Positions 18,601 to 29,734 of a stretch of 33,664 nt of DNA are shown piece by piece. Source of the DNA: an uncultured PS1 clade bacterium (GTDB taxonomy: Bacteria > Pseudomonadota > Gammaproteobacteria > PS1 > Pseudothioglobaceae). The translations under genes were made by a program, and so were the position numbers. The stretch lies in the NCBI GenBank assembly GCA_938086805.1, contig CALKDH010000109.1:1-33664 (forward strand), in the 5' to 3' direction. Below the pieces are notes generated by a model. The model did not search any database and was not told the origin of the DNA. It saw only the letters and a list, made by a program, of their open reading frames with translations. Numbering within the stretch: position 1 is the stretch's first letter; each line of letters starts with the position of its first letter.

Positions 18601-19234
18601 CGGTTACAGCCAAAACCTTCTTTGTAGTGAAATATCAAATCATAAAATAATATTTAGTAATGAGCCTATAGTTGTTCAAGAGCTTCTTATTCCAACACTC
18701 AAGCTAAGTAGTGAATTGCTATTAAAAATGAAGATAGCGCTTCCAAATATAGAAGAGGAATTCTTTGAATTTTTATATCAAGAAGTTTTTAAATATACTA
18801 ATGAGATTAAATTGCCAGGACCTACAGGAGAATCAAACCAGTTAAGTTATAAACCCAAAGGAACAGTTTTGTGTCTTGGCCCTGAGTCAGATGTATTATT
18901 AAAGCAGACACTCTTGTCACTTTTTTTAGGAAATAGTGTCATTACTCAAATTTCTAGTAAGGACTTCGATATCTTGATTGAACTTGGATTAAAAAAAGAA
19001 AATATACACAGACTCAATGACTCTCCAAGCATTAGTTTATTAGAGAGTAGCTCATACAACGCCGTATTCTATTTTGGCAATTCCACTTCACTCCAAGAAC
19101 TTATACTGAGGTCACGAAGAGAGCTAATACCAATAGTAAGTTCAATTTATGAGCCCTGGGAGCTTATCAAAGAGAAAGTAATAACGGAGGACACAACCGC
19201 ATCAGGAGGCAATGCAAATCTTCTTGCGCTCTAA
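15602..19234 (+). CDS. putA: Bifunctional proline dehydrogenase / L-glutamate-gamma-semialdehyde dehydrogenase (PutA lacking the N-terminal RHH DNA-binding domain)
   Basis: 1210 aa; PRODH motifs ([40 protein letters not shown]) and ALDH motifs ([67 protein letters not shown]). Confidence 0.97.
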
Positions 19235-20223
19235 AGCGAGTTAATTTTAAATGCAGTCGGTGTGAGTTGAGTTTGTCCTGTAAACCATCTCACAAAAGAG
19301 GAAGGTTCTGAATAACCTAAATGATATGAGATAACCTTAATAGAAAGTCCGCCCTTTATCATATGCTTTGATTTTTTTAATTTGAAGTCATTAAATACCT
19401 TACGAAAAGTTGTATTCTCTTTTAGCAATTGATTACGGAGTGAATTTTTACTTAATCCAAGATAGTTTGAAATTTCTTCAATATTGATTAAGTTGTAATG
19501 ATCCTCATAGTTATTCATAACCCTCTCAATCTTATCTCTGAGACTTAAGTTTGAATTAACTTTATCAGCCTTTTGTTTCAGAATACTGGTCAGATAATTC
19601 ACAAGATGAGGGTTGGAAAGGCTATTCTTTTTTATATAGTTTTTCTTGCTAATAAAAAGAGATGTTTCATCACAAGAGCAGTAGATAGGACAGTTAAACA
19701 GCGATTTTTCATTTATTCCTTGAGCTTGACTGCTTGTTTTTGTTTTAATCTGTTTAATTTGAAACCGTTTTGAGCGGATAAAAGATGCGACTATCGAAAG
19801 CCCTATGTTTTCATAAATAGATGGATGTTTAATTATTGGATCAGCAACTGATTGAATTTTTATTAATTTATCTTCATCAGTAATTAGAAAGTTTATGCCC
19901 TCAAGTTCAGTTCCAATAAAAGATTGAAGCAATGTTATGCCTTCCTTTAGATTTTTCGAGTAAATAAATGCTTGACCAAATGCCTCTCCATAGTTTGGTA
20001 TCACTTGCGCCATCCGACCAAAATTGATTGATACTAATTCATCCTCAAAAACTGATTCTGCATCAATCACGAATTTTAGAATTTTCTCGACAGGTATAGA
20101 TACATTTTGATTATCTAATAAACTCTTTGCTATTCCAACCCTTTCGAAAATTACCTCTACCTCAAAAGGATAGATTTGATGTAATCTTTGTATGCATCTC
20201 CAAACGCCACTATAAGTATTCAA
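19231..20223 (-). CDS. AraC-family transcriptional regulator with N-terminal arabinose-binding-like domain
   Basis: 330 aa; C-terminal HTH_18 (ISNYLGLSKNSLRNQLLKENTTFRKVFNDFKLKKSKHMIKGGLSIKVISYHLGYSEPSSFVRWFTGQTQLTPTAFK); N-terminal VIPNYGEAFGQAFIYSKNLKEGITLLQSFI. Confidence 0.92.
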   Translation of the reverse strand: MNTYSGVWRCIQRLHQIYPFEVEVIFERVGIAKSLLDNQNVSIPVEKILKFVIDAESVFEDELVSINFGRMAQVIPNYGEAFGQAFIYSKNLKEGITLLQSFIGTELEGINFLITDEDKLIKIQSVADPIIKHPSIYENIGLSIVASFIRSKRFQIKQIKTKTSSQAQGINEKSLFNCPIYCSCDETSLFISKKNYIKKNSLSNPHLVNYLTSILKQKADKVNSNLSLRDKIERVMNNYEDHYNLINIEEISNYLGLSKNSLRNQLLKENTTFRKVFNDFKLKKSKHMIKGGLSIKVISYHLGYSEPSSFVRWFTGQTQLTPTAFKINSL

Positions 20224-20240
20224 GATTTAAGTTAAATTAC

Positions 20241-20278
20241 AATAAAATGTTAATATTTTATAATAATATGTTAATTTT
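20241..20278. promoter_or_regulatory. Candidate AraC-type operator: 17-bp direct repeat with 21-bp period
   Basis: AATAAAATGTTAATATT (20241-20257) and AATAATATGTTAATTTT (20262-20278): 15/17 identical, offset 21 bp. Confidence 0.5.
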
Positions 20279-20391
20279 AATTTGATATTTGTATTTATAC
20301 TAAACGCTATCAAAATAAGTTTATAGAGCCAATAATGAAGTTAAACAAAGGCCTTTGATTACTTTTACGTTTTTAATCAGGATTAAGATTT

Positions 20392-22848
20392 ATGTTAGAA
20401 AATATATTTGAATATTCTTTACTCTCTTTTCTTTTATCAATAGTATTGATTCTGTTGGTTCTCGTTAAGACAAATATAAAGATGTGGCAGTTGTGGCTAT
20501 TAGCGGTTGGATTAACTTATCCAGGAGCCGTTATTGCTAATCACTTTGGAGCTCAATTTCTCTTGCTTATTCTACTTGCAGTTGGAGCCCTTTTGGTTCC
20601 AACAATTAGACAGCTACTTTTCACAAAGCCACTTTACAAGATAATGCGAAAATCTTTGCCTCCGATTGGTGTAACAGAAAGTATTGCCCTAGAGGCTGGA
20701 AGTGTATGGTGGGACGCTGAACTTTTTCAGGGCGATCCAAATTGGAAAGAGTTGACCGAATTACAGGCAACAGAATTAACCGAAGAGGAGCAAAGCTTTG
20801 TTGATAATGAAGTTGAGATATTATGTGCAATGGTTGACTCTCATGAAATTCAATCCTCTCATGATTTACCTAAGGAAGTATGGAAATATATCTTTGAAAA
20901 AGGATTTTTAGGCTTAATTATTCCAAAAGAGTTTAATGGAAAAGGTTTTTCTCATTTTGCTCATGCAATTATTGTAGGCAAGCTCTCTTCAGCATCTCAA
21001 TTTTTAGGTATTGCAGTTATGGTTCCTAATTCTCTTGGTCCAGGAGAATTGCTTTTGAAATATGGCACCGATGAACAAAAGCAGCATTACCTTCCTCGAC
21101 TTGCAGAGGGCAAAGAAATCCCATGCTTTGGACTCACCTCGACTGTTGCTGGATCAGATGCAGGGTCTTTAATAGATAACGGAATAGTTTGCTATGACAA
21201 GTTTGAAGGAAAAGAGGTCTTGGGCTTAAAGCTGAATTGGGAAAAGCGTTATATCACTCTAGCACCAATTGCAACAGTTATTGGTTTAGCTTTTAAAGCT
21301 TATGATCCAGATAATTTACTTCCAGAGGATCACCCTCTTCACAGACAAAATGATCTAGGAATAACCTGTGCATTGATACCTCGAAAAACTAAAGGCCTGA
21401 GTATTGGTACAAGACACAAGCCAATTGGTGAGCCATTTCAAAATGGTCCAATCTTCGGAAAGGATGTATTTATACCAATGGATTGGGTTATTGGAGGAGA
21501 TAAAATGCTTGGACATGGTTGGAGGATGCTTATGGAATGCCTCAGTGTTGGAAGAGGAATTTCACTTCCAGTAACCGGTGCCTCAGCAACTCAAGCAATG
21601 CTCCTTACAACAAGTACATACTCTCAAACACGTGAGCAATTTGGAATACCCATTGCAAAAATGGAAGGAATTCAGGAAAAACTTTCAAATCTAGCTAGCA
21701 ATGCATATAGAGCTACTGCCAATATAAATCTTTCTACATGGGCTCTTGATGCAGGACACAGGCCTTCAATTATTTCTGCAATAGTGAAATATAGGAATAC
21801 ACAGCTACTTCAAAGCTCATCAATCGACGCCATGGATGTACATGGAGGTAGAGCGGTAATGGAGGGTAAAAGAAATTATGTATCCAAAGTTTATTCTGGC
21901 GCGCCCGTTGCAATAACCGTAGAGGGGGCAAATATTCTAACAAGAAGTCTGATGATTTTTGGTCAAGGACTCATTAGATGTCATAAAACGATGCTGGATG
22001 AGTTAAGAGCACTTCATGATGAAAGCAAAGATTCAATTAGTAAGTTTGATAAGGCACTTGTGACTCATGTGGGTAGTTTTATTAACAATATTGCTAGAGC
22101 AATTTTATTTTCTTGGACGCGTGGACGTCTAGCTAAACCCTATGGAGACCACACGACCAAAGTTTATTATAGAAATCTTTCAGTTTTGTCAGCTAAGTTT
22201 GCTTGTTTGACTGATATTGCCTCACTCCTTCTTGGAGGAGCGCTTAAGAGAAAGGAAATGATATCTGGAAGATTTGCAGATTCGATTTCAGCAATGTATG
22301 AAATTAGTGCTTGTATAAAACTTTATGAAGAGCAGTTTCAGGATGATGAAAATGCAAAGAATCTTCTTAAGCTTTCAGTCTTAACTCTGATTAAAGAGGC
22401 AGATACATCGATGCTTCAAAATATTGAAAGCATGCCAATCAATAGAGTAGCGAAATGGCTTTTGAGATTTTTATTTTTTCCACTCTCTGTTACAACTTCA
22501 AAAATTGATGACAAGTTAATTATCAACACTTCAAAATCTGTTCTTGATATTGATTGGATTGAAAGTAACCTAGCCACTTGTATATGTTCAAATCTAAAAG
22601 ATAAACCAGAACATCCATTCAATATACTTTTTCAAGGCTTTGAGGCTGGAAAGGAGTTAAAAGTATTGAGGGATAAAGCTAAAAAAGCTGGTTATAAATA
22701 TCAGCCAAGTATTACTTTAGAGTTTTGGCTTCAGGGTCTAGTTGATAATAAAACTTTATCTAAAGAGGATAAAGAGAATTGGTTAAGGTTGAATGATTTA
22801 GTTCTTGAAGCATTGAAGGTTGATGATTTCGAGAGTCTTGATAAATAA
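20392..22848 (+). CDS. fadE: Acyl-CoA dehydrogenase, FadE type (N-terminal membrane segment)
   Basis: 818 aa; hydrophobic N terminus, then FGLTSTVAGSDAGSLIDNG, LNWEKRYITLAPIATVIGLAFKAYDPD, VMEGKRNYVSKVYSGAPVAITVEGANILTRSLMIFGQG typical of E. coli-like long FadE. Confidence 0.96.
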   Translation: MLENIFEYSLLSFLLSIVLILLVLVKTNIKMWQLWLLAVGLTYPGAVIANHFGAQFLLLILLAVGALLVPTIRQLLFTKPLYKIMRKSLPPIGVTESIALEAGSVWWDAELFQGDPNWKELTELQATELTEEEQSFVDNEVEILCAMVDSHEIQSSHDLPKEVWKYIFEKGFLGLIIPKEFNGKGFSHFAHAIIVGKLSSASQFLGIAVMVPNSLGPGELLLKYGTDEQKQHYLPRLAEGKEIPCFGLTSTVAGSDAGSLIDNGIVCYDKFEGKEVLGLKLNWEKRYITLAPIATVIGLAFKAYDPDNLLPEDHPLHRQNDLGITCALIPRKTKGLSIGTRHKPIGEPFQNGPIFGKDVFIPMDWVIGGDKMLGHGWRMLMECLSVGRGISLPVTGASATQAMLLTTSTYSQTREQFGIPIAKMEGIQEKLSNLASNAYRATANINLSTWALDAGHRPSIISAIVKYRNTQLLQSSSIDAMDVHGGRAVMEGKRNYVSKVYSGAPVAITVEGANILTRSLMIFGQGLIRCHKTMLDELRALHDESKDSISKFDKALVTHVGSFINNIARAILFSWTRGRLAKPYGDHTTKVYYRNLSVLSAKFACLTDIASLLLGGALKRKEMISGRFADSISAMYEISACIKLYEEQFQDDENAKNLLKLSVLTLIKEADTSMLQNIESMPINRVAKWLLRFLFFPLSVTTSKIDDKLIINTSKSVLDIDWIESNLATCICSNLKDKPEHPFNILFQGFEAGKELKVLRDKAKKAGYKYQPSITLEFWLQGLVDNKTLSKEDKENWLRLNDLVLEALKVDDFESLDK

Positions 22849-22863
22849 GGATTTGGGGTAGGT

Positions 22864-25302
22864 ATGAAAGAATATTTTGATAAAGCATTTACTAAAATTG
22901 CTGTACTTGGTTCAGGCACAATGGGAGGCCAAATAGCTGCCCATTTTGCTAACTTAGGTTTTGATACCACAATGTTTGATACTAGCGAGGAAGCACTATC
23001 AAAATCGATAGCAATGATGAAAAAGTTAAAGCCTACTCCTTTTGCAAGTCCTTCTGTATCTGGATTAATTAAGACATCTACCTACGATGATTTAACTACT
23101 ATTTCTGGCTGTGACTTCATCATAGAGTCGATTGTTGAGAATCTAGATATCAAAAAAAAGCTCTTCAAGCAAATATCTCCTCACATCAATGACAATGCTA
23201 TTTTGGTAACGAATACATCTGGTTTGTCGATTCAAAAAATAGCTGAGTCAGCTCCAGATAGTTTAAGGAGTCGAATCTTTGGTGTTCATTTCTTTAATCC
23301 TCCTAGGTATTTGCCGCTCGTTGAGTTAATAAGAACGTCATATAGTGATGAAAGTTTATTAACGAAGGCTGAGGGTTTTATTACTTCAGCTCTAGGTAAA
23401 GAGGTTGTTTATGCAAAAGATAGTCCGGCTTTCGTAGCAAACAGGATTGGTGTATTTTCCTTTATGGCAGTTTTGAAACATGCTGAAAACTTTAACCTCT
23501 CAGCTGACACTGTAGATGCTCTCACTGGAAAGAGAATTGGAAGACCTGCAAGCGCTACGTTTAGAACTCTAGATGTTGTTGGCCTTGATGTCATGGCAAA
23601 CGTAGTAAAAAATATTTATGAAAACGCAAAGGATGATCCTTGGATTGAATTATTTCAGCTTCCAGATTGGATTGAGGCTCTAATTGAGAAAGGCTCGTTA
23701 GGAAGTAAAACACGAAAGGGAATCTATGAAAAAGTTGGTAAAGACATTTTTGTCTTCGACCCTAAAAAAGGAGAATATAGGCTCTCTGATAAAACTATTA
23801 GCTCTAAAGTAAAGAAGATAATAAAAGATAGTAGAACCATAGAAAATGCTCTTCTGGAGCTCTCAAAATGTGATGATCCTCAAGCTCAGTTCTTGTGGTC
23901 AGTTCATCGTGATGTATTTCACTACACTGCCTATCATCTTGAGCATGTTGCTGAAACTGCAAGATGCGTTGATATAGCTTTAAAGTCTGGATTTGCCTGG
24001 CAAAAAGGAATCTTTGAACAAGTTCAGATAACTGGTTGGTCTGAGGTAAGAGAGTTACTTAATCAAGATATTAAGAATGGAAAAACTCTTTCAAATCAAG
24101 CATTGCCTTCATGGGTCATGGATCAGGCTTTTGTCTACTCTGAGGATGGCGCATTCAATCCAAATAATAACCAGTTTATTCCAAGGTCCTCTCACCCAGT
24201 TTATGAAAGACAATTAAATAAGACGCTACTTAGTGGAGAGAAGAAGAGCCAATTAGATGTCTTGAAAGATGGTGAATCTATAAAATTGATTGATATCGGA
24301 AATGGTATTGCTAGCGTCTCTTTTAAGACAAAGATGAATGTATTGAGTTCAAGTGTTTTAACCGAGCTACCTGAATGCCTAGACTATCTGGAAAGCAATG
24401 GTTTTCATGCTCTGATTATCAAACAAGAGCAGGAGCATTTTTGTGCAGGTGCAAACCTTTATGAGGTTATCTCAGCAATTAAGCTTGGCCTACTTGAGAA
24501 GGATCCAGGTTTGTCTTCCAAAGCAAAAAAGAAGGCTTTTGAGGTTATGCACCCTGAGCTTCCTAAACTTGGAAAACTTTACTCAATCAAAAAAACTGTC
24601 CGCATGCTCCAAGATTTATTAATGCGACTAAAGCATGGAAAAATTCTAACAATTGCAGCTGTTGATGGGCTTGCACTTGGAGGAGGCTGTGAACTTTTAC
24701 TCCACTGCAATAGAGTGGTTGCCTCAATGAATTCCTTTATTGGACTTGTAGAGGTTGGCATTGGAGGAATCCCTGCTGGATGCGGTAGTAAGGAAATGGC
24801 GCTTAGGGCTTATTTAAACAAAGAGTCTGATGACATCTTTCCTCTGTTATCTAAGCATTTTGAGCAAATCGCAATGGCAAAGGTGTCAGCTAGTGCCCTA
24901 GAGGCAAAGGAAATGGGTTATCTCAAGAGTGAAGATGTCATCATCGCTAATCCAAGTGAGTTACTGTACGTTGCAAAACAGCAAGCTTTATCAATGCTTG
25001 AGTCAGGATTCAGATCTCCTCTTGATGACACATTTAAAGTGGTGGGTAAGGCTGGATATGCAAACATTATGGCTCAGGTTGCTAACCTATTTGAGGGCAA
25101 CTTCATGTCCGAACACGACAAATATTGCATATCCTCATTAGCCAAAGTGATGACAGGCTCGCTGGTTGAGGAGAACACGGTAGTCAATTCAAAAATGCTA
25201 CTAGACCTTGAAAGGAAATACTTTGTTGAACTTTTGGGCACAAAGAAAACTCAAGACAGAATTGAGTTTATGCTCAGAAATAGTAAACCCCTTCGTAATT
25301 AA
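22864..25302 (+). CDS. fadN: 3-hydroxyacyl-CoA dehydrogenase / enoyl-CoA hydratase fusion, FadN-like domain order
   Basis: N-terminal Rossmann FTKIAVLGSGTMGGQIAAHFANLGFDTTMFDTSE and HAD signature FGVHFFNPPRYLPLVELI; C-terminal crotonase HFCAGANLYEV, AAVDGLALGGGCELLLHCNRVVAS. Confidence 0.93.
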   Translation: MKEYFDKAFTKIAVLGSGTMGGQIAAHFANLGFDTTMFDTSEEALSKSIAMMKKLKPTPFASPSVSGLIKTSTYDDLTTISGCDFIIESIVENLDIKKKLFKQISPHINDNAILVTNTSGLSIQKIAESAPDSLRSRIFGVHFFNPPRYLPLVELIRTSYSDESLLTKAEGFITSALGKEVVYAKDSPAFVANRIGVFSFMAVLKHAENFNLSADTVDALTGKRIGRPASATFRTLDVVGLDVMANVVKNIYENAKDDPWIELFQLPDWIEALIEKGSLGSKTRKGIYEKVGKDIFVFDPKKGEYRLSDKTISSKVKKIIKDSRTIENALLELSKCDDPQAQFLWSVHRDVFHYTAYHLEHVAETARCVDIALKSGFAWQKGIFEQVQITGWSEVRELLNQDIKNGKTLSNQALPSWVMDQAFVYSEDGAFNPNNNQFIPRSSHPVYERQLNKTLLSGEKKSQLDVLKDGESIKLIDIGNGIASVSFKTKMNVLSSSVLTELPECLDYLESNGFHALIIKQEQEHFCAGANLYEVISAIKLGLLEKDPGLSSKAKKKAFEVMHPELPKLGKLYSIKKTVRMLQDLLMRLKHGKILTIAAVDGLALGGGCELLLHCNRVVASMNSFIGLVEVGIGGIPAGCGSKEMALRAYLNKESDDIFPLLSKHFEQIAMAKVSASALEAKEMGYLKSEDVIIANPSELLYVAKQQALSMLESGFRSPLDDTFKVVGKAGYANIMAQVANLFEGNFMSEHDKYCISSLAKVMTGSLVEENTVVNSKMLLDLERKYFVELLGTKKTQDRIEFMLRNSKPLRN

Positions 25303-25311
25303 CTGGAGAAT

Positions 25312-26502
25312 ATGATGAGAAAAGCTTATATTATTGATGCAAAAAGAACTCCAGTTGGAAAAGCCAGAGGTTTGCTGTCTAAGACTAGGGCAGATGACCT
25401 ATTGGTTCATGCAATTCAAAGTGTGCTCAAGGCATCGGATTCAAATGAAAAAATAAATAGTAGTATTGATGATATTATTGTTGGCTGTGCAATGCCAGAA
25501 GGGCCTCAAGGCTTAAATATTGCACGAATCGCAACTTTGCTTGCTGGCCTGCCTGATTCGACTCCCGCATACACTCTCAACAGATTCTGCTCTTCAGGAC
25601 TTCAATCAGTCTCTAATGCTGCCGACCTCATTAAGTCTGGCTCATCTGACCTAGTCATTGCTGCTGGTGTCGAAAGCATGAGTAGTGTCCCGATGACTGG
25701 CTTTAAGCCATCAATGAATCCTAAAATTTTGTCAGATGAGAATATTTCGATTGCTTATGGTATGGGCCTAACAGCAGAGAAAGTAGTTCAGAAATATAAT
25801 ATTTCTAGAGAGGCGCAAGATCAATTCGCTTATGAGAGTCACCAAAAAGCAATAAAAGCAAACAATAGCGGTTTATTTGAAAATGAAATTGTTCCGATTT
25901 CAACTGTCGAGGATAGCTACTCAGTTGAATCAAATGAATATTTAAAAAACACTAATCTTGTTGCTAAGGATGAAGGCCCAAGAGAAGATACTAGCCTTGA
26001 AGTTTTGGCAAAACTGAGAACCGTATTTGCTCAAGATGGGTCAGTCACTGCGGGAAACAGCTCCCAAATGTCAGATGCAGCGGCAGCTGTTCTTGTTGCT
26101 AGTGAAGAGGCAGTTGAGAAATATAATCTAACACCTAAGGCCGAGTTTTTGGGATTTTCTGTAGCAGGAGTTCCTGCTGAAATAATGGGAATTGGTCCAG
26201 TAAAGGCAGTGCCTAAAGTGCTTGATTCGTTGGATCTTTCTCTTGATGATATTAGTTGGATTGAGTTGAATGAGGCATTTGCAGCCCAATCTTTAGCAGT
26301 TATTCAGGAGTTGAAACTTGACCCAGAAAAGGTAAATCCCCTAGGAGGAGCTATAGCTCTTGGTCACCCCCTGGGCGCTACAGGGGCAATTAGAGTTGCT
26401 ACACTTGTTTCTGCAATGCAAAGAGAAAAGTTTGATTACGGAATGGTGACCATGTGTATTGGAACAGGTATGGGTGCAGCGGGAATAATTAAGAGATGCT
26501 AA
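25312..26502 (+). CDS. fadA: Acetyl-CoA C-acyltransferase (thiolase); ATG 25312 or 25315
   Basis: KAYIIDAKRTPVGKARG, catalytic NRFCSSGLQSVSNAA, NPLGGAIALGHPLGATGAIR, CIGTGMGAAGI. Confidence 0.96.
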   Translation: MMRKAYIIDAKRTPVGKARGLLSKTRADDLLVHAIQSVLKASDSNEKINSSIDDIIVGCAMPEGPQGLNIARIATLLAGLPDSTPAYTLNRFCSSGLQSVSNAADLIKSGSSDLVIAAGVESMSSVPMTGFKPSMNPKILSDENISIAYGMGLTAEKVVQKYNISREAQDQFAYESHQKAIKANNSGLFENEIVPISTVEDSYSVESNEYLKNTNLVAKDEGPREDTSLEVLAKLRTVFAQDGSVTAGNSSQMSDAAAAVLVASEEAVEKYNLTPKAEFLGFSVAGVPAEIMGIGPVKAVPKVLDSLDLSLDDISWIELNEAFAAQSLAVIQELKLDPEKVNPLGGAIALGHPLGATGAIRVATLVSAMQREKFDYGMVTMCIGTGMGAAGIIKRC

Positions 26503-26509
26503 ATCATTT

Positions 26510-27490
26510 ATGACAAATAAAAACTTTATCGAAAACCTTAAACTCCCAATTATTCAGTCACCTATGTTTATTGTCTCGAATGCGAGACTTGTCATAGCAT
26601 CCTCTAAGGCAGGAATTATTGGATCCTTTCCGACAGCCAACTGTCGAACTCTAGAAGCCTTAGATCAAGAATTTAGTCAAATAACAGAGTCCTTGGGTTC
26701 TGGGGATGATGCAATGCCTTGGGCTGTAAATATAATTGTAAGCAAGATGTATGCTAGAAGTAATGATGATATAGAGCTCATTCTTAAACATAAACCCCCT
26801 ATTGTTATTACCTCACTTGGAAACCCTAAAGATGTCGTTAAAAAGGTCCATGAGTATGGCGGTTTAGTCTATTCGGATGTAATTAATTTGTACCATTCAA
26901 AAAAAGCAATTAGTGCTGGGGTAGACGGACTGATTTTAGTCTGCAATGGTGCTGGTGGACATACCGGTGACCTCTCTCCGTTTGCTTTTGTAGCTGAAGT
27001 GAGAAGCATATTTGATGGAACAATTATAGTGGGCGGAAGCATAAGTTCTGGTGATTCAGTTCTAGCAATTCAAGCCTTGGGTGCTGATATGGCTTATATG
27101 GGTACTCGATTTATTGCAACCGAAGAGAGTGACGCGACTGAAGAATATAAGCAAATGATCTTAAATGCATCAGCTAGTGATATTATTAAGTCTAACAAGA
27201 TTACAGGAGTTAATGGAAATTGGTTAGAGCAATCCCTAAATAATGCTGGTATCAATCCAAATTCAGGTGGAATTCAATCAACTATCTCTGATTTTAAGAA
27301 AATGATTATGCCACTCATAAAACAAAAACTTAAGGTAGATTTTGATGTTAGCAAAGCCTCAGCAAAGAGATGGAGGGATATTTTTTCAGCTGGACAAGGA
27401 GTCGGCTCTATCGCCAATGTGCCAAGTGTTGAGGATTTGGTGTTAGAATTAGAGCAACAATATCTTGAATCAAAAAATCGAATTTCATAA
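26510..27490 (+). CDS. Nitronate monooxygenase / 2-nitropropane dioxygenase-like flavoprotein
   Basis: 326 aa; LKLPIIQSPMFIVSNARLVIASSKAGIIGSFPTANCRT, GLILVCNGAGGHTGDLSPFAFVAEVR, GGSISSGDSVLAIQALGADMAYMGTRFIATEES. Confidence 0.9.
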   Translation: MTNKNFIENLKLPIIQSPMFIVSNARLVIASSKAGIIGSFPTANCRTLEALDQEFSQITESLGSGDDAMPWAVNIIVSKMYARSNDDIELILKHKPPIVITSLGNPKDVVKKVHEYGGLVYSDVINLYHSKKAISAGVDGLILVCNGAGGHTGDLSPFAFVAEVRSIFDGTIIVGGSISSGDSVLAIQALGADMAYMGTRFIATEESDATEEYKQMILNASASDIIKSNKITGVNGNWLEQSLNNAGINPNSGGIQSTISDFKKMIMPLIKQKLKVDFDVSKASAKRWRDIFSAGQGVGSIANVPSVEDLVLELEQQYLESKNRIS

Positions 27491-27500
27491 GGATCAAAAC

Positions 27501-28070
27501 ATGTTATCTAAGCCAGCCAGGAGAGACCTACAACATAATAGAACGATTGAAGGCAAAGGCTATAAAAGAGAAGATGGAATGTGGGATATTGAAGTTTTTC
27601 TTATTGATAGCAAAACCTACTCTTTTAACAATATGCATCGAGGATATATCAGTGCCGGAGAGCCTCTTCATGATATGGCACTCAGATTAACTCTGGATGA
27701 CAAAAGACAAATTATCGATATAGAGGCATCAATAAATGCCTCTCCATACAATATTTGCCCGCAAGCAGTTAAAAACTGCCAAAAACTAAAGGGCGAGCAT
27801 GTCGTTGCTGGTTTTAATAGAAAAGTTATAAAGGCTTTAGGGGGAGAAAAGGGGTGCAGACACATTACTGATCTCTTGGCATACGCTGGAACTATTGCTT
27901 ATCAAACACTTTGGAAAGAAAAAACAGGGGGCGAGTCAGAAACCATAACTCTTGAAGAGGCTAAATCAATAGAAAAGAAATTTGCCAACTCATGTTTTGC
28001 TTTCAAAAAGGATGGAGAGGTTTATAATGAATATAAGGAAATATTAATTGGCAAAGTAAAAAATAACTAA
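27501..28070 (+). CDS. DUF2889 domain protein (start corrected from ORF 27465)
   Basis: RRDLQHNRTIEGKGYKREDGMWDIEVFLIDSKTYSF...RGYISAGEPLHDMALRLTLDDKRQIIDIEASINASPYNICPQA...GCRHITDLLAYAGTIAYQT; family recalled from pattern, not searched. Confidence 0.75.
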   Translation: MLSKPARRDLQHNRTIEGKGYKREDGMWDIEVFLIDSKTYSFNNMHRGYISAGEPLHDMALRLTLDDKRQIIDIEASINASPYNICPQAVKNCQKLKGEHVVAGFNRKVIKALGGEKGCRHITDLLAYAGTIAYQTLWKEKTGGESETITLEEAKSIEKKFANSCFAFKKDGEVYNEYKEILIGKVKNN

Positions 28071-28087: not shown

Positions 28088-29734
28088 ATGACAGTCAACA
28101 TACCAAATAAACTTGAAGAGACAGATTTTTTTAAAGAGCATGGAAACTTAGTAGAGTTTTTTGATAACTGTTGTAATGAGCATCAAGAGAAAATAGCTTT
28201 TGAAAGCTTTGGAGTTGAGATGTCTTACAATGATCTATCAGCTCAGGTTGACTCTTTTGCCACTTGGCTGAGTAGCAACTTCCAGGTTGGTGATAGGGTT
28301 GCAGTCATGATGCCTAACATGCTGGTTTACCCTGTAATCGTCTATGGTGCATTGAAAGCAGGTATTGTAGTAGTCAACATTAATCCTCTTTACACACAAA
28401 GAGAGCTTGAACATGTTCTCAGGGATAGTGAAGCTAAATTGTTGCTGGTTTGGGAAGGTGTTGCTAATGTCGCTGCAAAATCAGATCTTGCAAATGTAGA
28501 AAAAGTCCTAGTAACAACTGTTGGTGATCTTCTAGGTTTCAAGGGAAAGATTATTAATTTGGTTACTAGGAAAGTTAAGAAGTTAGTCCCTAAGTACCAA
28601 ATTGATGGTGCAAAAATGTTTCTTGAGGTTTTGAAAGAGAATGAAGGCTCAAAGGCTGATTCGTTGGATATACCAATTGAGAGCACTGCATTCCTTCAAT
28701 ACACTGGAGGAACTACAGGAGTTTCTAAAGGCGCTACTCTGACCCATCGAAATATTCTGGCTAACATTATCCAAGCCTTCTTTACAATTGATCCTAAAAT
28801 GTATGATGACTCAAGAAAAGAGCAAAGAATCGCTATCTGCCCTCTCCCTTTGTATCACATTTTTGCTCTAACCGTCCATAATTTCATGCTGTTCCATATT
28901 GGTGGAAGGAGTGTACTGATTACTAATCCTAGGGACTTAAAAACTTTTGTTTCAATAATGAAAAAACATAAGTTTCATATGATTTCAGGTGTGAATACGC
29001 TTTATGAGGCACTATTGAATTATGATGGTTTTAAGGAACTAGATTTTAGCAATCTGCTTATGTCTTTGAGTGGCGGTATGGCAGCACTTGATACAACTGC
29101 AAAAAGATGGGTAGAGTTAACTAAATCAGTAATCTGGCAGGCATATGGGCTTACTGAAACATCTCCTCTGGTTAGTGTAAACGACTATAAACAGACTGAA
29201 TTTACAGGTTCTGTTGGTCTACCTGCAGCCTATACAGAAATTGAGATTAGAGATGAAAATGGAAATGTACTTAAAGAAACGAATGCCGTTGGAGAGCTTT
29301 GCGTTAGAGGTCCACAGGTTATGAGTGGATATTGGAAGTCTGAAGTGTCAGGTCTTGATGAGAATAATTGGTTTATGACCGGCGACATTGCTCGAATTGA
29401 TGAAACTGGTAATATTTTTATAGTTGATAGAAAAAAGGACATGATTATTGTCTCAGGCTTTAACGTCTTTCCAAATGAAGTTGAAGCAGTTGTTAATGAG
29501 CACCCCGCTGTTCTTGAATGTGGCTGCGTTGGAATAGAGGGCGAGGGGTCGCAAGAGCTCGTAAAAGTATTTATTGTTCTTCATGATGGACAAACTGCAA
29601 CTGAGGATGAAATTATCAGTTTTTGCAGGGAAAAGCTAACCGCTTATAAAGTTCCAAAGCACATAGAATTTATCAAGGAGATTCCAAAAACTAATGTTGG
29701 TAAAGTTTTAAGAAGAGAACTTAAAGAAAATTAA
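28088..29734 (+). CDS. fadD: Long-chain fatty-acid-CoA ligase
   Basis: 548 aa; LQYTGGTTGVSKGATLTHRN, WQAYGLTETSPLVSVN, WFMTGDIARIDETGNIFIVDRKKDMIIVSGFNVFPNEVE, PKTNVGKVLRREL. Confidence 0.94.
   Translation: MTVNIPNKLEETDFFKEHGNLVEFFDNCCNEHQEKIAFESFGVEMSYNDLSAQVDSFATWLSSNFQVGDRVAVMMPNMLVYPVIVYGALKAGIVVVNINPLYTQRELEHVLRDSEAKLLLVWEGVANVAAKSDLANVEKVLVTTVGDLLGFKGKIINLVTRKVKKLVPKYQIDGAKMFLEVLKENEGSKADSLDIPIESTAFLQYTGGTTGVSKGATLTHRNILANIIQAFFTIDPKMYDDSRKEQRIAICPLPLYHIFALTVHNFMLFHIGGRSVLITNPRDLKTFVSIMKKHKFHMISGVNTLYEALLNYDGFKELDFSNLLMSLSGGMAALDTTAKRWVELTKSVIWQAYGLTETSPLVSVNDYKQTEFTGSVGLPAAYTEIEIRDENGNVLKETNAVGELCVRGPQVMSGYWKSEVSGLDENNWFMTGDIARIDETGNIFIVDRKKDMIIVSGFNVFPNEVEAVVNEHPAVLECGCVGIEGEGSQELVKVFIVLHDGQTATEDEIISFCREKLTAYKVPKHIEFIKEIPKTNVGKVLRRELKEN

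Follow-up and report, generated by a model that had tools for sequence, protein, structure and literature searches.

Comparison of one stretch of DNA with its relatives leads us to infer, with high confidence, that positions 20241-20278 of the window constitute the operator of an AraC-family protein that is encoded divergently from fadE (19231..20223, minus strand) and would bind there and activate the fadE operon in the manner of a class II activator. The window is the whole stretch analysed, 33,664 nucleotides in length; it corresponds to contig C109 of a genome that is 70% complete and was compared within a set of 83 Thioglobaceae genomes. In this family every genome that encodes the regulator has the site beside its gene, and the position of the site relative to the -10 element of the promoters it accompanies is constant.

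Repeat and promoter elements in the window

The spacer between the regulator gene and fadE is 168 bp long and 81% A+T. On its plus strand it carries a distal half-site, AATAAAATGTTAATATT (20241..20257), and a proximal half-site, AATAATATGTTAATTTT (20262..20278), which on direct reading are identical at 15 of 17 positions and offset by 21 bp. Scored against the half-site consensus AATAAAGTGTTAA, the distal half is strong (12/13) and the proximal one weaker (11/13). The latter overlaps the -35 position of the fadE promoter (20273..20278, plus strand), where AATTTT has no match to TTGACA. The -10 hexamer TATACT (20296..20301, plus strand) follows 17 bp after the end of the proximal half-site and hence of the -35 hexamer. 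The original prediction had described this repeat, its 21 bp offset and both hexamers, and every coordinate proved correct. By itself the window is nevertheless suggestive rather than decisive, because repeats of at least 15/17 arose in 12 of 400 dinucleotide shuffles of the spacer (3%) when any spacing from 10 to 60 bp was allowed, and in one of 400 (0.25%) at exactly 21 bp.

The distal half is also surrounded by partial inverted symmetry, AATAAAAT...ATTTTAT, within A+T-rich sequence. An inverted-repeat operator was considered on this account and rejected, as the symmetry is confined to the distal half and the direct spacing of 21 prevails over whole sites: half-versus-half column identity, computed over 32 sites, peaks sharply at this spacing (0.62, the runner-up reaching 0.47), and the site before a lipase/BipL-like hydrolase gene (L088) is a perfect 17/17 repeat in which AATAAAGTGTTAATTTT occurs twice, 21 bp apart. 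No Rfam families were found in positions 19000-21500.

The genes downstream of the promoter, all on the plus strand and named by profile matches, begin with a fadE-type acyl-CoA dehydrogenase, the first gene of the operon (20392..22848; NCBIfam NF009586, E=2.5e-273, over cut-off). It is followed by a FadB-like 3-hydroxyacyl-CoA dehydrogenase/enoyl-CoA hydratase (22864..25302; Pfam 3HCDH_N and ECH_1) and a FadA-like acetyl-CoA acyltransferase (25312..26502; NCBIfam NF006553, over cut-off). The same gene run continues with a nitronate monooxygenase/FabK-like flavoprotein (26510..27490; Pfam NMO, PF03060) and a DUF2889 protein (27465..28070; Pfam PF11136, E=4.3e-36), and the presumed operon ends with a FadD-like long-chain acyl-CoA ligase (28088..29734; Pfam AMP-binding; NCBIfam NF005463, E=8.7e-196, below cut-off). 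Between operator and fadE, three relatives (L014, L015, L016) have a short open frame (MEKDIKNIKDQVGLIWITIVGYITYLEFFKG, about 30 residues) that possibly encodes a small membrane protein.

Conservation of the site with the regulator

Orthologues of the regulator are found in 22 further genomes of the family, so that, the window's genome counted, 23 of the 83 encode it. The original prediction had named absence of the repeat from relatives with the same divergent gene pair as evidence against it; in fact the paired site stands beside the regulator gene in all 23. Among 22 orthologous loci examined closely, whose regulators are 42-100% identical, the paired motif is present at 21 bp between the regulator and the neighbouring gene in every one and is the best conserved noncoding block. 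Alignment of 21 loci to the -10 revealed 24 invariant columns across operator and -10, and the mean majority-base frequency is 0.88 in the operator and 0.84 in the -10 block, as against 0.51 further downstream; no other block is strongly conserved. The similarity of one half to the other falls as low as 7/17 in some members of the fadE clade; each half is conserved in itself.

It is this conservation across relatives that makes the repeat real. The one point in favour of a chance partial repeat in an A+T-rich spacer, namely that 3% of the shuffles reach 15/17 at some spacing, has to be set against invariant columns that are kept with regulators down to about 42% identity, and against the recurrence of the pattern at unlinked promoters. 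A site model built from the 22 loci (R1) and its refined version (R2) were used to find such sites, and with R2 the E-values per genome, unlinked promoters included, are as low as 2e-11. We consider the probability of a chance origin practically nil and the explanation ruled out by the cross-genome conservation.

In L017, from a single-cell genome (G014:C5), an apparent fragment of a trimethylamine-methyltransferase-like gene, recognised by eye only, is inserted between the proximal half and the -10; it is most likely an amplification chimera.

Absence of an intact site where the regulator is missing

None of the 60 family genomes without the regulator has an intact site, the best match among them being 8e-5 (G028), although the 23 and 60 genomes are not independent counts, given that only two genera have the regulator. 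One regulator-bearing genome, G022, has a weak R2 score, yet the full site is visible in L010. Most regulator-less genomes of the genus are incomplete and also without a contig carrying fadE, so G028, which is complete, is the sole comparable one with an intact fadE upstream region. In this genome the putA-fadE neighbourhood is the same but the regulator gene between the two is missing: putA is followed directly by the fadE promoter, in which the distal half can still be made out but the proximal half has been lost (L119, that is G028:C1:6300-12300, positions 110-300). G028 thus reads as a natural case of regulator loss with a decayed proximal half-site.

Could the motif belong to another regulator, for instance a TetR- or GntR-type fatty-acid repressor that binds an inverted repeat, with the AraC gene adjacent by coincidence? 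Of the 29 genus genomes, 19 contain TetR-type genes, and the partial inverted symmetry around the distal half would suit a protein of this kind. However, TetR genes are found in genomes without the site as well (G025, G023), whereas all 23 genomes with the AraC gene have the site beside it, including those in which the neighbouring gene is a different one. Moreover, the peak of direct-repeat identity at 21 bp and the perfect direct repeat of L088 are at odds with an inverted repeat. We therefore regard ownership by another regulator as very unlikely and assign the operator to the AraC-family protein.

Promoter geometry and probable mode of action

In the window's clade the 17 unbroken promoters on the fadE side were compared, and each has TATACT at a distance of 19 bp from the proximal half. 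In the sister lineage, described below, a TATAAT-like hexamer (5 or 6 of 6) is located exactly 20 bp after the proximal half in 7/7 promoter types, and the -10 is at 20 bp in 16 of 16 sites. The background of TATAAT-like hexamers in the same stretches is 1.4% per position, and in 5000 shuffles at most four of the seven promoter types coincided in hexamer position. The -35 region (spacers of 16-18), on the other hand, matches TTGACA at 2.4 of 6 bases versus 2.5 of 6 for random positions. Distal halves agree with the consensus at 11-13 of 13 positions and proximal halves at 8-13 of 13. The architecture first proposed from the window, in which the proximal half lies over a poor -35, the -10 follows at a set distance and an AraC-family protein is encoded alongside, has thereby been extended to eight promoter types of constant geometry.

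This combination of a fixed -10 distance and no -35 is characteristic of activators that bind over the -35 position and contact polymerase from there. As judged from the arrangement of sites, the geometry corresponds to a class II activator of the AraC type sitting on the DNA as a tandem dimer. Since the proximal half is weaker than the distal one in most sites, its occupancy would be the regulated step.

Alternatively, the AraC-family protein might use the same operator to repress fadE until a ligand releases it. A protein sitting over the -35 can block RNA polymerase, and many regulators of fatty-acid degradation, among them FadR, PsrA and FadP, are described as repressors. Yet steric blocking would not demand the strict 19 or 20 bp to the -10 that is seen at eight promoter types and that contact with polymerase does demand. 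No recognisable -35 remains for an unaided polymerase to use, and in G028, where the regulator was lost, the proximal half is missing too and the promoter is altered. Repression of fadE is for these reasons improbable, and we continue with activation as the preferred reading.

In the mechanism we propose, two regulator subunits would bind head-to-tail on one helix face, one at the strong distal half and the other at the weaker proximal half over the -35. A signal, probably a fatty acid or a derived acyl-CoA, would occupy the N-terminal domain of the regulator; the proximal subunit would then contact RNA polymerase and promote transcription from TATACT, with a start predicted at about 20308, and fadE-fadB-fadA-...-fadD would be switched on. 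Binding to the same operator probably also limits transcription of the regulator itself. The site lies 19-53 bp upstream of the regulator start codon in the window and within about 100 bp of it in all loci, so near that the regulator's own promoter must overlap or adjoin it. Comparison of the loci points to no one conserved promoter that would serve the regulator gene. The original prediction had held self-control by the regulator probable; repression by occlusion of its own promoter is the simpler expectation and the more likely form of autoregulation.

Sites at other promoters

The sister lineage comprises G001, G019 and G026 (same genus), G032 and G073 (another genus) and the contig L083. 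Here the regulator faces a gene for a FadH/old-yellow-enzyme-type reductase (fadH/OYE) and not fadE. The site nevertheless accompanies the regulator, and directly before fadE, two genes on, there is another copy wherever the contig or locus reaches that far. About four copies are found in a sister-lineage genome. With R1, unlinked copies were detected before malate synthase G (G026, G001), a TRAP transporter operon (G026), the lipase/phospholipase BipL-like hydrolase mentioned above (G019) and, in G001, a gntR gene that is followed by an acetyl-CoA-synthetase-like gene; another copy, which scores better with R2, precedes a PAF-acetylhydrolase-like gene (G019). The functions of these targets are coherent: fatty acids are freed from lipids and oxidised, and malate synthase allows the acetyl-CoA to be used.

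The original prediction had suggested looking for the motif near other fad genes. This expectation holds for the sister lineage, where other fatty-acid and lipid genes carry it, but not for the window's genome, which has one strong site. As far as this 70% complete genome shows, the evident target there is the fadE promoter rather than a broader set of fad genes. No malate synthase G gene of the window's clade was found with a site; the window's genome encodes the enzyme (G000:C74), and the surroundings of that gene contain none. The fadH/OYE gene is absent from this clade.

Some further matches deserve mention. In G001 the operator stretch TTGGAGTAATAAAGTGTTAATTTTATGTAATATTTTGTTAACTGTTTAG is identical before the gntR gene (L090:5587-5629) and malate synthase G (L091:5531-5573), as if the promoter had been copied. 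A weak match in G008:C1 was dismissed as a chance reading, as it is inside an open frame and covers part of the pattern only. At the very end of G009:C32 there is a match resembling a distal half (L092:4367-4390) that is clipped by the contig end and may be where a second site begins in this genome of the fadE clade. The contig L083 (DUBF01000091.1), labelled Rhodospirillales, has the same regulator-fadH locus with two sites and is probably a misbinned Thioglobaceae contig.

Relation to known systems

At the araBAD promoter of E. coli the half-site I1 is stronger and distal, and I2 is weaker, proximal and overlaps a poor -35. The arrangement described here is like araI1-I2 in its direct-repeat half-sites offset by 21 bp, in the order of their strengths over a poor -35 and in the divergent regulator; it differs in the half-site sequence, in the sensor domain and in its fatty-acid targets.

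With regard to fatty-acid degradation, a survey of proteobacterial regulons lists FadR (GntR) and PsrA and FadP (TetR), with AraC unmentioned, and reports that the PsrA regulons of Shewanella extend to glyoxylate and TCA genes (PMC5343134). The system described here shares with these regulons the (in our case predicted) control of beta-oxidation genes, and its malate synthase sites are comparable with the glyoxylate/TCA reach of Shewanella PsrA. It is unlike them in being AraC-type, with tandem direct-repeat sites and activator geometry. A gamma-type FadR (TIGR02812) over the NCBIfam cut-off was found in none of 29 genus genomes, the control set having one over cut-off. In the open-access literature we found nothing to the point on AraC regulators of Thioglobus or on AraC-type control of fad genes, and the fatty-acid/lipid regulon predicted here is apparently undescribed.

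We are inclined to believe that an undescribed AraC-family activator is the main fatty-acid/lipid switch in Pseudothioglobus and its sister genus, where it would replace FadR, PsrA and FadP. It would govern a multi-promoter regulon (beta-oxidation, a 2,4-dienoyl-type reductase, lipases, TRAP transport and malate synthase G) in one lineage and the single divergent fadE promoter in the other, with a sensor that reads a fatty acid or acyl-CoA. Such an activator would join a function whose catalogued regulators are of the GntR and TetR types, and it would offer a clean case of change in regulon size and of operator decay after regulator loss. Members of Pseudothioglobus, which are relatives of SUP05/Arctic96BD-19, are abundant in the sea and difficult to handle experimentally. 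Once the operator of such a regulator is defined and its regulon and transcription start are predicted, one can forecast when these bacteria burn lipids and test the forecast in a heterologous host.

The regulator protein

The regulator has 330 amino acids, and HTH_18 (PF12833, E=1.2e-11, above cut-off), at residues 252-325, is the only domain reported by a Pfam scan. A structure model built from 18 orthologues is of middling confidence (pLDDT 75, pTM 0.52) and matches structures of GadX, CdpR and Rns. The match to CdpR (5chh) extends over the whole length (E=3.5e-11); the N-terminal fragment of VirS (8rcw) is matched with E=2.5e-4, and matches to H-NOX domains are weaker. The predicted N-terminal domain is closest to those of CdpR and VirS, which have the same helix-turn-helix type, and the sensor domain is thus probably of the CdpR/VirS kind. 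The regulator is only 8-13% identical to these proteins, which belong to other bacteria and other genes. VirS controls the mycobacterial mymA lipid operon, so that the analogy is a loose one.

The regulator also shares an AraC-type DNA-binding domain with ToxT and Rns, for which structures with bound fatty acids exist (6p7r, 6xiu), but its best sensor-domain matches are of the other kind. The ToxT and Rns matches to the model are shorter than that of CdpR and apparently fall on the DNA-binding part, so that they give no grounds for assuming a fatty-acid ligand; that the ligand is a fatty acid or acyl-CoA is our guess from the target genes.

In the window the regulator gene begins with TTG (20221-20223, minus strand), as it does in the two closest relatives, and most other orthologues have ATG at the same residue; the TTG start possibly results in low translation.
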